Shown one piece after another: positions 36,292-42,034 of a stretch of 64,000 bases of DNA. The translations under genes were made by a program, and so were the position numbers. Source of the DNA: Candidatus Mycalebacterium zealandia (GTDB lineage: Bacteria > Desulfobacterota_D > UBA1144 > Nemesobacterales > Mycalebacteriaceae). Below the pieces are notes generated by a model that saw only the letters and a list, made by a program, of their open reading frames with translations, was not told the origin of the DNA and made no database searches. The DNA is taken from positions 248,001-312,000 of the forward strand of contig CP046180.1 in assembly GCA_014075295.1 (NCBI GenBank), read 5' to 3'. Numbering within the stretch: the stretch's first letter is position 1; each line of letters starts with the position of its first letter.

Positions 36292-39200
36292 ATGAAAGAC
36301 AACGGTTTTGTCCATCTTCATCTCCATTCGGAATACTCGCTCCTTGACGGAGCTATAAAGTTTGACGACCTGATTAGCAGGGTGAGCGAGTTGGAAATGG
36401 GCGCTGTTGCTATTACAGACCACGGCAATCTCTTCGGCGCCTACGAGTTTTACAGCAAGGCGAGGAAAAAGGGTGTGAAGCCGATAATCGGCTGTGAAAT
36501 CTACGTTACGCCCACGCTTAAACTGGACAAGCCGTCTGACGGTAAAAACTTTCACCTGACCGTTCTGTGCATGAACGAGAAGGGATACTCAAATCTTTCA
36601 AATCTGGTTACGCGTGGTTATTTTGAGGGGCTTTACCGTCGTCCCAGAGTTGACCACGAGATGCTCTCGGAGCATAACGAGGGATTGATAGTTTTAAGCG
36701 GTTGCTTGAGCGGCGAGTTATCTCAGGCAATTTTCAAACGCTATCCTGACCCGCCCGAAAAGGTCGTTTCCACCTATAGAGAGATTTTCGGCGACAGATA
36801 CTACCTTGAAGTTCAGGCGACTGGTGTGAATGAGCAGAAACGCGTGAACTCTGAGTTGAAAAAGTTGGGGAAAAAGCTTGATGTTCCGCTTGTCGCCACC
36901 AATGACTGCCATTTTCTGCGGCGCGACGACTACGAGCCTCACGATGTTCTGCTTTGTATACAGACGGGCAAAAAGCTTGAAGACGAAGGCAGAATGAAGT
37001 TTCCGGGAGACGGGTTTTACCTCAAAACGCGCGGGGAGATGGAAGAAACCCTCAGAGGTTTCTCTGACGCGCTGGACAGAACCGTTCAGATCGCGGAAAG
37101 GTGTGATTTTGAATTCAAGGATGAGGGCTACCGCTTTCCGCAGTTTGAAGCCGGCGGCGAGTCGTCGGTCCGGAGTTTACGCGAACTTGCCCCCCGCCTT
37201 CTTGCCGAGCGGCTTTCGTCCCGCAAAATCTCGGAAAACTCCGCCGAATATTCCGAGCGGCTTGAATACGAGATTGACGAAATCTGCAAAATGGGTTTCG
37301 CGGACTACTTTCTTGTGGTCGCGGATTTTGTGCGATACGCCAAAGAAAATAACATTCCGGTCGGTCCCGGGCGCGGGAGTGTGGCAGGCAGTCTTGCCGC
37401 TTACGCTCTGGGCATAACAGATGTTGACCCTGTGGTTCACAAACTGATTTTTGAGCGTTTTCTCAACCCGGGCAGGATTTCAATGCCTGACATAGACATG
37501 GACTTCTGCGCCGAAGGGCGCGATCGTGTCATAGACTATGTGAGCGAAAAATACGGCAGCGAAAATGTCGTTCAAATCGGCTCCTTCGGAAGAATGTCGT
37601 CAAAGGCGGTTGTGCGTGATGTCGGCAGGGTTATGGGGATTCCCTACGGCGAGGTGGACAAGGTTTCAAAACTTATCCCGTCTTTTCGCGGCAAGGTTCA
37701 CAGTATAGAAAAAGCCGTCAAGGAAGCGCCCGAACTCAAAAAACTTGTTGAGGGCTCGGAGCAAATTGCCACGCTGATTGAAATGGCGAAACACCTTGAA
37801 GATATGACTCGCCACTCTTCAACGCACGCGGCGGGCGTGGTTATTGCGAGCGAGAAAATCTCCAACCGCGTGCCGCTTTACAAAGGCACCAACGGTGAAA
37901 CTGTAACGCAGTTTGACATGCACGCGCTTGAAAGTCTGGGTTATGTGAAATTTGATTTTCTCGGTCTTAAAACACTCACAATCATTCAAAAAACCGTTGA
38001 CCTCATACGCTCCCGCAAAAACGGTTCGGCTCCCACGCTTGAGATAGACCATATGCCGACTGATGACGAAAAGGTTTACAAACTCTTCACCAAGGGCGAA
38101 ACGCACGGGCTTTTTCAAATTGAATCGTCATCGGGAATGGTTTCAATGCTACGCAAACTCAAACCAGAAAGTTTTGACGACATAGTCGCCGCACTCGCGC
38201 TTTACCGTCCCGGACCGCTGGACAGTGGAATGGTTGAAGACTTTATCAAACGCAAACGCGGCAAGGCGCGGGTTTCGTATCCGCATCCTCTTCTTGAGGA
38301 CATTCTCAGCGAAACGCGCGGGCTTTTTGTCTATCAGGAGCAGATTATGCAGACGGCGAGCATTTGCGCGAATTACAGTCTCGCAGATGCGGATTTAATG
38401 AGGCGTGCAATGGGAAAGAAAAAGCCGCTGGAGATGAAGGCGCAGAGGGAGAAGTTTGTTTCAGGCGCCTTGGACAAAGGCATAGAAAAAGCAAAAGCCA
38501 CCGAATTGTTTGAAATTATGGAGAAGTTTGCGGGCTATTCCTTCAACAAAAGCCATAGTACCGCCTATGCGCTTCTCACCTACCAGACGGCGTATCTCAA
38601 AGTGCATCATCCAGCGGAGTTTATGTGCGCGCTTATGACGGTTGATTCCGCGAGTGACAAGGACAAACTCATCGCGCACATAACCGAATGCAGAAAGATG
38701 GGCATAAAGGTTCTTCCGCCCGACATAAGCGAGAGCATGTCAGGGTTCACGCCAGTAGATGAAAAGACCGTGCGCTTCGGGCTTTCCGCGCTCAAAGGTG
38801 TGGGTGAGGAGGCGGTCTCCGCTATAATCGCCGCACGTGAAGAGGGTGGTGCGTTTGAAGACCTGTTTGATTTCTGCGCGCGCGTTCAGACCAAGCGGAT
38901 AACAAAAAAGGTTTTTGAGATGCTCATAAAAAGCGGCGCGCTGAGTTCATTCGAGAGCAACGCCGCGAAACTGCTGAACTCTCTTGACACAATCGCCGCG
39001 TATTACGCCGCAATGGACTCTTCGGGAGATGCGGGCGGGCAATCATCTCTTTTTTCGTCTGATTCCGGTGCGATTACCAAGCCGGTTCTGCCCGAAGCGG
39101 AGAGATGGAGCGATGAACAGACCGCAGAATACGAGTTGGAAGCGGTCGGGCTGTTTGTTTCAAGCCATCCAATGACGCGCTACGCTGAGCAGTTGAAAGT

Positions 39201-39783
39201 TTTCACCTCGCACGCCGACACCGAGCGGTTTAGTTCTTTGACAGACAAAACAGAGGTTTCAATCGCCGGAGTCGTGCGCTCGCTAGCCATAAAAACGACC
39301 AAGTCTGGCAAGGGGCTGTTCGGGCGGCTTGCGCTTGAAGACCTGAAAGGATCGGTTGAGTGCGTGATTTTCAATGACGCGATAACCAAAAGCCGCAACC
39401 TGCTTGAACAGAAGACCGAGCCGGTGATTTTGACGGGCAATGTTGACGGTCCCGAAGACAAAAAGCAGATGAAGGTCAGAGAGGTTCTGTCCGTTTCGGA
39501 ATTCCTCTCCCGCGCGTCCCGCGTTACCATTTCCGTTGACGAAAGCACGGCGAACGTAGCAAACCTCTCCAAACTTGAAAACATTTTCAAACAGCACCGG
39601 GGCGAGGCGAAGGTTGATTTAAACCTCGGAGTGGAAGGTAAAACGGTTTCCATTGAGGTCGGTAAATACGGGGTTGAGGCGTCTCCAGATTTTGTCAGGG
39701 AGATTGAGTCGCTTCTCGGAGATAGGGCGCTCGCGTTTGAGGTACGGAATGGCGGCGCGGAGAGAAAACCTCCGTTCGGGTGA
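36292..39783 (+). CDS. dnaE: DNA polymerase III alpha subunit
   Basis: The 1163-aa replicative polymerase of the DnaE1 type. The N-terminal PHP domain starts HLHLHSEYSLLDGA. The palm has the catalytic aspartates in PDIDMDFC (near 400) and a third acidic residue in the palm after GPGRGSVAGSLAAYALG. The C-terminal half has tandem HhH (LSALKGVGEEAV) and the OB domain (SIAGVVRSLAIKTTKSGK). The length equals E. coli DnaE. Its last 89 bases overlap the end of comEC on the other strand. Confidence 0.97.
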   Translation: MKDNGFVHLHLHSEYSLLDGAIKFDDLISRVSELEMGAVAITDHGNLFGAYEFYSKARKKGVKPIIGCEIYVTPTLKLDKPSDGKNFHLTVLCMNEKGYSNLSNLVTRGYFEGLYRRPRVDHEMLSEHNEGLIVLSGCLSGELSQAIFKRYPDPPEKVVSTYREIFGDRYYLEVQATGVNEQKRVNSELKKLGKKLDVPLVATNDCHFLRRDDYEPHDVLLCIQTGKKLEDEGRMKFPGDGFYLKTRGEMEETLRGFSDALDRTVQIAERCDFEFKDEGYRFPQFEAGGESSVRSLRELAPRLLAERLSSRKISENSAEYSERLEYEIDEICKMGFADYFLVVADFVRYAKENNIPVGPGRGSVAGSLAAYALGITDVDPVVHKLIFERFLNPGRISMPDIDMDFCAEGRDRVIDYVSEKYGSENVVQIGSFGRMSSKAVVRDVGRVMGIPYGEVDKVSKLIPSFRGKVHSIEKAVKEAPELKKLVEGSEQIATLIEMAKHLEDMTRHSSTHAAGVVIASEKISNRVPLYKGTNGETVTQFDMHALESLGYVKFDFLGLKTLTIIQKTVDLIRSRKNGSAPTLEIDHMPTDDEKVYKLFTKGETHGLFQIESSSGMVSMLRKLKPESFDDIVAALALYRPGPLDSGMVEDFIKRKRGKARVSYPHPLLEDILSETRGLFVYQEQIMQTASICANYSLADADLMRRAMGKKKPLEMKAQREKFVSGALDKGIEKAKATELFEIMEKFAGYSFNKSHSTAYALLTYQTAYLKVHHPAEFMCALMTVDSASDKDKLIAHITECRKMGIKVLPPDISESMSGFTPVDEKTVRFGLSALKGVGEEAVSAIIAAREEGGAFEDLFDFCARVQTKRITKKVFEMLIKSGALSSFESNAAKLLNSLDTIAAYYAAMDSSGDAGGQSSLFSSDSGAITKPVLPEAERWSDEQTAEYELEAVGLFVSSHPMTRYAEQLKVFTSHADTERFSSLTDKTEVSIAGVVRSLAIKTTKSGKGLFGRLALEDLKGSVECVIFNDAITKSRNLLEQKTEPVILTGNVDGPEDKKQMKVREVLSVSEFLSRASRVTISVDESTANVANLSKLENIFKQHRGEAKVDLNLGVEGKTVSIEVGKYGVEASPDFVREIESLLGDRALAFEVRNGGAERKPPFG

Positions 39784-42034
39784 TTTGCTCCCCGTCCGTG
39801 AAAACGGACACCATTCCCTCAATCTCCGTTTCACGGATTTCAAAAGTGGGATTCTCTCCAAACATCTTTTTGCACATGCGGCACACCACAACACTCGGAC
39901 GCGCCGACCTTACAAGTCGCAAAAGCGCATTTTTGTTTCTCTTTGTGATTTCGGGCAGAAACACCAAATCACTACGCAATTCGCGGTTTTCCACAATATC
40001 CACAATATCAAACTTTTCCACATCACTGTGGATATTGTGGATAGATTCCATCAATAGAAACGAGGTTTTTCCACATACGATTTTGAGGATAACAGGGCGC
40101 GGAAAACGCGAGTCGGCGACCGTAAAGTCTTCTAAACGAAGGAATTTCAGTTGTGTCGCGCCGTTTTTGGAGATGTCATGAACAGGAGGGGATTTGTGGA
40201 TTTTTTTCCACGTTACGCCGTAGTTTTCCACAGTTTTCCACAATTTATTGTTCAACTTTGCACCGTTTATCCACAGGTTTTCCACACTATTGTTCTCTAT
40301 CAACGCCGCCGCGCCGTTGAGTTGGCTCTGGTCGTTTGCCAGCAGAATGAGGTGATCCGTTTTTGTTATCCGCTTGGCAAGCAGGGCGCGAGAGACAACG
40401 GCCGAACCGATGAAGGCCGAGCGCGCTTTGCGTGAAAAGCCACCCTTAACGAGCACGGTTGAGCCGTCTGTGAATGTGAACAGCGCGATGTTCTTGCGCC
40501 CTGCGTCAAAAAACGCCGCTTCAGTTTCTCCGTTTCCCGCAGGGCGGAAGTCGTAAGTCGCGCTTGCGGTTAGGCACACAACAAGAACGGCTGCGGCAAC
40601 CTGTGCGGTTTTGCGCCCCCTTTTCACAAAAAACGCGGCTGCAAGCGCCATGTAGAAAAGCGCGAAAGTCAGTCTCGACATCTGCGGCACGGAAATCGCG
40701 GGGCTTAGGGAGAAAAGTGCTTCGGCAACTGCGGTTAGCGTGACCGAGAGAAGCGACAGAGACGAGAGCAGAAACTCCGGCACAAAACCGAGGGCGGCAA
40801 AGACCGCTACCGCAACAACGCACAGAGGCACCATCGCAAGCGCAATCGGCATCGCGACTATGTTTGCGGGGAAAGTAAGAACCGGCGCGACCCCGAACAT
40901 GTTCACGACAAACGGCAGAGTCGTCATGGTCGCCGCCGCCGTTGTGAACACAACCGCAATGAGCGCGAGCGAGGTTTTTCGCGCCAGAGTCCTGTTCTCT
41001 CCGGATTCGGGGTTTTTCACTCCAAACCGATTCAGGGCGAGCAGTATTCCCGCCACCGCTGAAAAAGACAGAATAAACGACGGCTCAAACAGCGCGTTTG
41101 GGGTGAACAGCAGAATAATCACCGCGGCGGCCGCGAGCGCGTTCATTCTGTCGTCCCGTCTGCCCGAAATCATCGCGACCAGATAGACCGCCGCCATAAT
41201 CGCCGCGCGAACGGACGAGTTTCCAAAACCCGCGAGCAGGGCATAGAGAAAAACCGCCGGTATCGTCAGCCCCGCCGCGATTTGCGGCACGACAAACCGC
41301 GTCATAATGTATTCAGAGCGTTTAAGTAGCCACTTGACCGTCATAAAGAAAAATACCGCCGCGATGCCGACGTGCAATCCCGAAATTGCGAACAAATGTC
41401 CTATTCCAAGCGTTGTGAATTTGCGTTTAAGCGTTTCGTCAAGGGCGCTTTTTTCGCCTATGGAGAGCGCGTTCACAATTTCAGCCTGCGAGTTCGGAAG
41501 GTTTTGTCGTATGAAAACGGCGTAGTCGCGCCGCAAGCCGTTCACAAGACGCAAAAGGGCGCCGGATCGCTCCCGTGAGCCGAGCGGCTTGATTTTGTCC
41601 GCTTCGGCGTACGCAGTGAAAAACACACCGCTCTGCGCGAGCCGGCGGGCGTAATCCGTAGCGCCGGGATTCTTGAAGCCGGTTATCCGACGCGCGCGAA
41701 TCCGCACCGAAATCTCATCGCCGTAGGCAAGATTTTCATGACCGTTTGAATAGACGATGACCTTCGCGTTCACAGGCGCGGTTTGGTCGCCGTGAGTCGC
41801 GCTCTCAATTTTGAGCGGGATTTTTACCGAGCCATTTTGCCGTTTCTGAGCGTTTTCGTAGAGCGAGCCCGCAACGGTTATCCGCTTTCCTTCAAGTGCG
41901 GAAAGCGCGGGGTCCGGTCCGGACTCATAAAGACGCGGCAACGCCATTCCAAGCGGAAAAAAAAGAAGGGCGAATAAAACCGCAAAGCGTTTTTTCCCGC
42001 CCGCAAGAGCCAAAGCGGCCAGCAGGAGGCACAA
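39695..42034 (-). CDS. comEC: ComEC/Rec2 family DNA-uptake channel, main reading frame
   Basis: A 779-aa polytopic protein. The ComEC competence domain is clear: IGHLFAISGLHVGIAA, SSVRAAIMAAVYL and the SFILSFSAVAGILL region. The C-terminal metallo-beta-lactamase domain is degenerate. AFFDAGRKNIALF replaces the usual FLDVGQGD, and LLANDQSQLNGA stands where TH-x-DxDHxGG should be, so metal binding and nuclease function look lost. The first transmembrane helix is in another frame upstream (42035-42164), split off by a one-base insertion. Its codons also carry a dense DnaA-box-like cluster. The stop lies 89 bases inside the end of dnaE. Confidence 0.85.
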   Translation of the reverse strand: MCLLLAALALAGGKKRFAVLFALLFFPLGMALPRLYESGPDPALSALEGKRITVAGSLYENAQKRQNGSVKIPLKIESATHGDQTAPVNAKVIVYSNGHENLAYGDEISVRIRARRITGFKNPGATDYARRLAQSGVFFTAYAEADKIKPLGSRERSGALLRLVNGLRRDYAVFIRQNLPNSQAEIVNALSIGEKSALDETLKRKFTTLGIGHLFAISGLHVGIAAVFFFMTVKWLLKRSEYIMTRFVVPQIAAGLTIPAVFLYALLAGFGNSSVRAAIMAAVYLVAMISGRRDDRMNALAAAAVIILLFTPNALFEPSFILSFSAVAGILLALNRFGVKNPESGENRTLARKTSLALIAVVFTTAAATMTTLPFVVNMFGVAPVLTFPANIVAMPIALAMVPLCVVAVAVFAALGFVPEFLLSSLSLLSVTLTAVAEALFSLSPAISVPQMSRLTFALFYMALAAAFFVKRGRKTAQVAAAVLVVCLTASATYDFRPAGNGETEAAFFDAGRKNIALFTFTDGSTVLVKGGFSRKARSAFIGSAVVSRALLAKRITKTDHLILLANDQSQLNGAAALIENNSVENLWINGAKLNNKLWKTVENYGVTWKKIHKSPPVHDISKNGATQLKFLRLEDFTVADSRFPRPVILKIVCGKTSFLLMESIHNIHSDVEKFDIVDIVENRELRSDLVFLPEITKRNKNALLRLVRSARPSVVVCRMCKKMFGENPTFEIRETEIEGMVSVFTDGEQITRTEVFSPRRHSVPQTRAPYLREATQSP
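39987..40286. other. Cluster of twelve DnaA-box-like 9-mers inside comEC
   Basis: One perfect TTATCCACA (40267). One-mismatch copies: TTTTCCACA at 39987, 40014, 40067, 40224, 40234 and 40278; ATATCCACA at 39996 and, on the minus strand, 40027; CTATCCACA on the minus strand at 40036. Two-mismatch copies: 40195 (minus) and 40204. Several are exactly 9-10 bases apart. It may bind DnaA as a titration or control site, or be an origin-like region; the encoded protein segment is low in complexity (IHNIHSDVE, DIVDIVEN). Confidence 0.55.

Follow-up and report, generated by a model that had tools for sequence, protein, structure and literature searches.

A dense DnaA-box cluster inside comEC of Candidatus Mycalebacterium zealandia: a candidate DnaA sink near the replication origin

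The 64,000-nucleotide stretch of DNA analysed here (positions 248,001 to 312,000 of contig CP046180.1, referred to as the window) carries a dense group of DnaA boxes within comEC, and the cluster that a sequence-only reading of the window had predicted at this place is confirmed as real. From its location and anatomy, the group is probably, though we hold this with limited assurance, an origin-proximal, off-origin DnaA-titration cluster of the type represented by the DnaA-box clusters (DBCs) of Bacillus subtilis, the Streptomyces cluster and datA of Escherichia coli. As read from the sequence, what is unusual in the cluster is its position inside coding sequence, in a genome in which no Hda was detected. 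To our knowledge, very few bacteria have had off-origin DnaA sinks characterised, and most of these sinks lie in intergenic DNA.

DnaA boxes and their host gene

Within positions 39987-40286, seven exact matches to TTWTCCACA and five with one mismatch were found, giving 12 boxes with at most one mismatch. Compared with TTATCCACA, the same 300 bases contain one perfect site, ten single-mismatch sites and two double-mismatch sites, six of the sites being TTTTCCACA. The earlier count of 12 sites was right about the single perfect match and one too few for single-mismatch sites, of which it had listed nine, while its six identical 9-mers were all recovered. It can be observed in Table 1 that the boxes form two sub-clusters, the first with boxes on both strands and the second on one strand.

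The host gene, comEC, is a DNA-uptake gene, and the boxes fall in the C-terminal part of ComEC that corresponds to the beta-lactamase-like domain. No Pfam detection was obtained for this domain of ComEC and its metal motif is lost, the decayed motif reading LANDQSQLNG against the order consensus TSxDKDHLxGA. The box segment also encodes a repeated IVDIVEN/IHNIH peptide. The nearest named relative of the protein belongs to Candidatus Dadabacteria SW_59, with 33% identity. At its 3' end, comEC runs tail-to-tail into dnaE, with an overlap of 89 bp.

Table 1. Coordinates of the comEC box cluster, its component sites and the two converging genes, in window positions
Feature	Position	Strand	Description
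dnaE (DNA polymerase III alpha)	36292..39783	+	ORF coordinates; name recognised from protein sequence
comEC	39695..42034	-	Competence PF03772, DUF4131 PF13567
Off-origin DnaA-box cluster	39987..40286		7 exact, 5 one-mismatch, 1 further site two mismatches from TTATCCACA
Exact TTWTCCACA	39987, 40014, 40067, 40224, 40234, 40267, 40278	+	
One-mismatch boxes	39996+, 40027-, 40036-, 40084-, 40204+		
Sub-cluster A	39987..40092	both	7 boxes: 39987+, 39996+, 40014+, 40027-, 40036-, 40067+, 40084-
Sub-cluster B	40204..40286	+ only	5 boxes: 40204, 40224, 40234, 40267, 40278
Inverted repeat, left arm TCCACAATATCCACA	39990..40004	+	Perfect 15-bp; cores of two boxes
Inverted repeat, right arm TGTGGATATTGTGGA	40027..40041	-	Perfect 15-bp; cores of two boxes
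IHF-like site TATCAAACTTTTC	40006..40018	+	12/13 letters of WATCAANNNNTTR; between repeat arms

Box density against the genome and synonymous recoding

Exact boxes were counted genome-wide, and one-mismatch densities were taken from 239 kb of sampled sequence. The exact word TTWTCCACA occurs 78 times in the 1,162,547 bp of the genome. The seven exact boxes in comEC are the most in any 300-bp stretch of the whole genome, with at most five elsewhere, which answers the check on genome-wide density that had been proposed earlier. Only two other groups of exact boxes exist in the genome, five at oriC (200013-200177) and four at mnmE-pabC (182810-182946). Boxes with at most one mismatch show a mean of 0.31 per 300 bp in the 239 kb sampled, where the top windows are comEC with 12, oriC with 7 and mnmE-pabC with 6. 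A genome-wide uptake-signal sequence was considered for the word and dropped, because just 78 exact copies are present in 1.16 Mb.

The peptide words VEN, WI and VEK could in principle force boxes into the DNA, and this was tested by synonymous recoding. When the peptide was recoded with genomic codon usage, a mean of 0.59 exact boxes and a maximum of 5 were obtained, and none of 60,000 recodings reached seven; the codon usage of comEC itself gave a mean of 0.72 with the same maximum. Permutation of the segment's own synonymous codons gave a mean of 1.40 and a maximum of 6, again without a case of seven (0/20,000). The control genes dnaE and lon contained no exact boxes, as expected. Codon use or protein constraint alone as the source of the boxes is excluded by these three nulls, none of which attains the observed number. 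The earlier statements that chance or codon use can hardly explain the cluster, and that DNA rather than protein sequence has been selected, are thus supported.

Conservation in the genus and the order

The congener sample consists of one genome, G001, the ComEC of which is 58% identical. Three of the seven exact boxes recur in its comEC at the corresponding codons, and four are not shared. The pair 40267/40278 is identical letter for letter, including the 11-bp spacing (TTATCCACA and TTTTCCACA), and the third kept box is another TTTTCCACA at the same codons; the bases immediately beside the kept boxes differ. The three boxes lie above G001's own codon null (mean 0.33, P about 0.0005). Synonymous identity with G001 amounts to 6/11 in exact-box codons vs 172/414 elsewhere, which is not significant; the former figure takes all codons with their third base in an exact box, since counting just the conserved boxes is biased. 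It should be noted that the kept VENLWIN pair also follows the protein motif VxxxWxN, which is widespread in the order.

No box pair was found in comEC of the 23 other comEC-bearing genomes of the order. Perfect tandem box pairs number 15 in 41 genomes of the order, seven of them in this genus, and five of these seven are located in comEC (four in this genome and one in G001); in comEC of any other genus among the 41 genomes, no such pair is present. On the sequences compared, the comEC box cluster therefore appears to be a genus-level feature, since outside the genus ComEC is retained in the order but its gene lacks the boxes. The refuting outcome named earlier, relatives with the protein but without the 9-mers, is seen in these distant members, whereas the congener has retained part of the array, so that the answer is split. 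In another genus of the order, g6 (G006, G010, G014 and others), a ComEC match was obtained in 0 of 13 searched members, all at least 90% complete, and comEC has apparently been lost or strongly diverged there.

Part of this evidence can be read in another way, namely that the boxes have no DnaA function and arose neutrally, as a stretch rich in GTGGA(A/T) was locally duplicated and slipped within a C-terminal domain under relaxed constraint. The MBL-like domain is indeed degenerate, both the inverted repeat in sub-cluster A and the IVDIVEN/IHNIH repetition in the peptide point to rearrangement of the DNA at this place, and four exact boxes are absent from G001. However, the boxes of sub-cluster B stand in unrelated peptide contexts with irregular spacings of 10-44 bp and no repeated unit, and the array of G001 also exceeds its codon null. 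Furthermore, the enriched word is exactly the box of the genome's oriC, and a second cluster, described below, is likewise kept in the genus. A neutral origin is consequently considered unlikely, although it retains appreciable weight.

Inverted repeat and IHF-like site

In sub-cluster A, two facing box pairs form a perfect 15-bp inverted repeat with arms 22 nt apart, the loop of which holds one more exact box and the one-mismatch IHF-like site. The DNA strand of this part folds with z = -4.2, better than 200/200 shuffles. One-mismatch IHF-like sites are expected at ~0.24 per 300 bp, and one is seen, at 40006; the site is weak evidence because near-sites are this frequent. Three HU/IHF-family genes are present in the genome, recognised at family level only, none being assigned to IHF.

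Such an arrangement could belong to an activity site of datA or DARS type, at which DnaA and an IHF/HU-family protein drive ATP hydrolysis (datA) or nucleotide exchange (DARS), as opposed to passive titration. The placing of the IHF-like site within inverted box pairs and the three HU/IHF-family genes are consistent with this, as is the distance from oriC of 7.6% of the chromosome, datA being located at 94.7 min, or ~10% (PMC5295017). We nevertheless regard it as improbable, given the mismatch in a site expected that often, the lack of an IHF assignment for the HU/IHF proteins, and the loss in G001 of most of the boxes flanking the IHF-like site.

Further box clusters near the origin

The second off-origin cluster of this genome (G000), mnmE-pabC, is located 17 kb from oriC and contains four exact boxes in 137 bp; the same interval of G001 has one exact box and several with one mismatch. 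G001 also has a dense box cluster of its own at the folK 3' end, 39 kb from dnaA on the same contig (G001:C2, L060:1438-1524), of which no counterpart was found at folK of G000. In the dnaA-dnaN region of G001, no exact TTWTCCACA is present. Since the mnmE-pabC cluster occurs in both species and the folK cluster in G001, the genus seems, judging from these two genomes, to be characterised by several off-origin box clusters in the vicinity of the origin.

Beside the mnmE-pabC boxes, an imperfect direct repeat, GTGGAAAAG(C/T)TAAGGGTCAGGTCTTG, extends over G000:C1:182811-182930 and is found in degraded form in G001. Its AGGGTCAGGTCTTG part resembles what we take to be repeats linked to REP-associated transposases. 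In G000, parS-like sites TGTTTCACGGGAAACA, one mismatch from the consensus, flank mnmE (G000:C1:182763 and 181097), and one of them adjoins the second box cluster; those flanking mnmE in G001 (G001:C42:26845 and 28131) differ from the consensus by two mismatches. The proximity of these sites to the second cluster, similar in both species, would allow the comEC array to be viewed as an element of chromosome architecture or segregation that acts with the parS/mnmE region and not in initiation control. This is very improbable, as parS with at most two mismatches is absent near comEC and the sole matches are situated at 181 and 183 kb.

Position relative to oriC

The gene dnaA is located at 200.3 kb, and the dnaA-dnaN intergenic stretch combines five exact boxes, an AT-rich run and the TAGTAGTAG DnaA-trio. 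The comEC cluster is 88 kb from this oriC, and its enriched box word is the 9-mer of the genome's own oriC. The GC skew, which is noisy and sampled, is mostly negative left of ~180 kb and mostly positive right of ~215 kb. A sign change is seen near 200 kb and none at 288 kb, where the comEC cluster lies, so the flip that the sequence-only reading had suggested looking for at the cluster does not occur there. A+T in the cluster is about 51-63%, and no DnaA-trio is present, the trio being found at the dnaA-dnaN region only.

A promoter-type site for control of comEC or dnaE by DnaA would have a precedent, as there are clusters at which DnaA acts as a transcription factor (PMC4447404). Little credence can be given to this role because the boxes are found some 1.7 kb into comEC, counted from its start, and past the stop of dnaE, where the 3' ends of the two genes converge; at most, a DnaA roadblock on comEC transcription is conceivable. 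Although its boxes are denser than those at oriC, that the cluster is part of a replication origin, as had also been suggested earlier, or an alternative origin, is scarcely tenable, since dnaA-dnaN, the boxes adjoining AT-rich DNA, the trio and the skew change are all found 88 kb away, and the comEC cluster has neither the trio and AT-rich unwinding element beside its boxes nor dnaA/dnaN next to it.

A putative DnaA sink

The titration reading can be compared with three known systems. Initiation in B. subtilis is restrained jointly by six off-origin DnaA-box clusters, the removal of which makes it early (PMC5295017); the oriC-proximal DBCs of this species are those of Okumura et al. 2012 as described in PMC5295017, PMC4447404 and PMC10950094. 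The regions most strongly bound by DnaA in vitro include sites beside trmE (mnmE) and between the converging gcp/ydiF ends, with 4-12 boxes per 300 bp, and in-gene sites are weaker, with a Kd of 1.1 uM or more vs 0.13-0.33 uM for the strongest eight regions (PMC4447404). The comEC array shares with these DBCs a density far above background, an origin-proximal position outside oriC, comparable box numbers per 300 bp and the presence of more than one cluster per chromosome, one beside trmE/mnmE and one between converging gene ends. Unlike the strong B. subtilis DBCs, which are intergenic, it lies wholly in coding sequence.

E. coli datA works with IHF close to oriC (PMC5295017, PMC4585315) and is similar in being a multi-box locus fairly near oriC, the weak IHF-like site between the boxes of the comEC array being a possible further likeness. 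However, datA is non-coding and has, in about 1 kb, five boxes together with an IHF site that is required, whereas the comEC array consists of 12 boxes in 300 coding bases with an IHF-like site one mismatch off. According to Smulczyk-Krawczyszyn et al. 2006, as cited in PMC10950094, Streptomyces coelicolor has an off-origin DnaA-box cluster that represses untimely initiation. The two clusters belong to different phyla, and the likeness between them is drawn from that description.

As a titration cluster, the comEC array would be bound cooperatively by DnaA, seven of its boxes matching those at the genome's own oriC. Located 88 kb from oriC, it would be doubled soon after initiation, and the two copies would then hold DnaA off the new origins, or aid its turnover, with the result that re-initiation would be delayed. 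Bending by IHF/HU in the inverted-repeat half may also play a role. The datA-like titration that had been proposed earlier is accordingly the best fit in location and anatomy, while we infer the binding of DnaA, the sink effect and the bending. No Hda was found above the curated cut-off, the best match being DnaA itself and the next reaching 28 bits; a diverged Hda may be present in this genome. Since Hda was not detected, there is room for a sink as regulator.

A more specific proposal, put forward tentatively and with some reserve, is that synonymous and amino-acid changes have turned part of the reading frame of a conserved gene into a replication-timing sink with more exact boxes than oriC, in a streamlined genome in which Hda was not detected. 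If true, a degenerate domain that is still translated would have been co-opted to serve as a DNA element. With a coding-sequence sink, partly kept in a congener of this uncultured lineage, the mechanism would reach a new phylum, and it would seem that small genomes can accommodate replication control within their genes.

From the relationship of its ComEC to that of SW_59, the lineage is probably, though tentatively, placed in Candidatus Dadabacteria. Marine Candidatus Dadabacteria are described as having streamlined genomes of ~1.2 Mb with reduced GC (PMC8115339); in the stretches sampled, the GC of this genome is about 51%, and reduced GC is not obvious. Regarding gene order, the distance between dnaA and comEC is 65-78 kb in members of two distant families (G003:C5 and G025:C63), compared with 88 kb here, which suggests that the proximity of the two genes is an old gene order near the origin.
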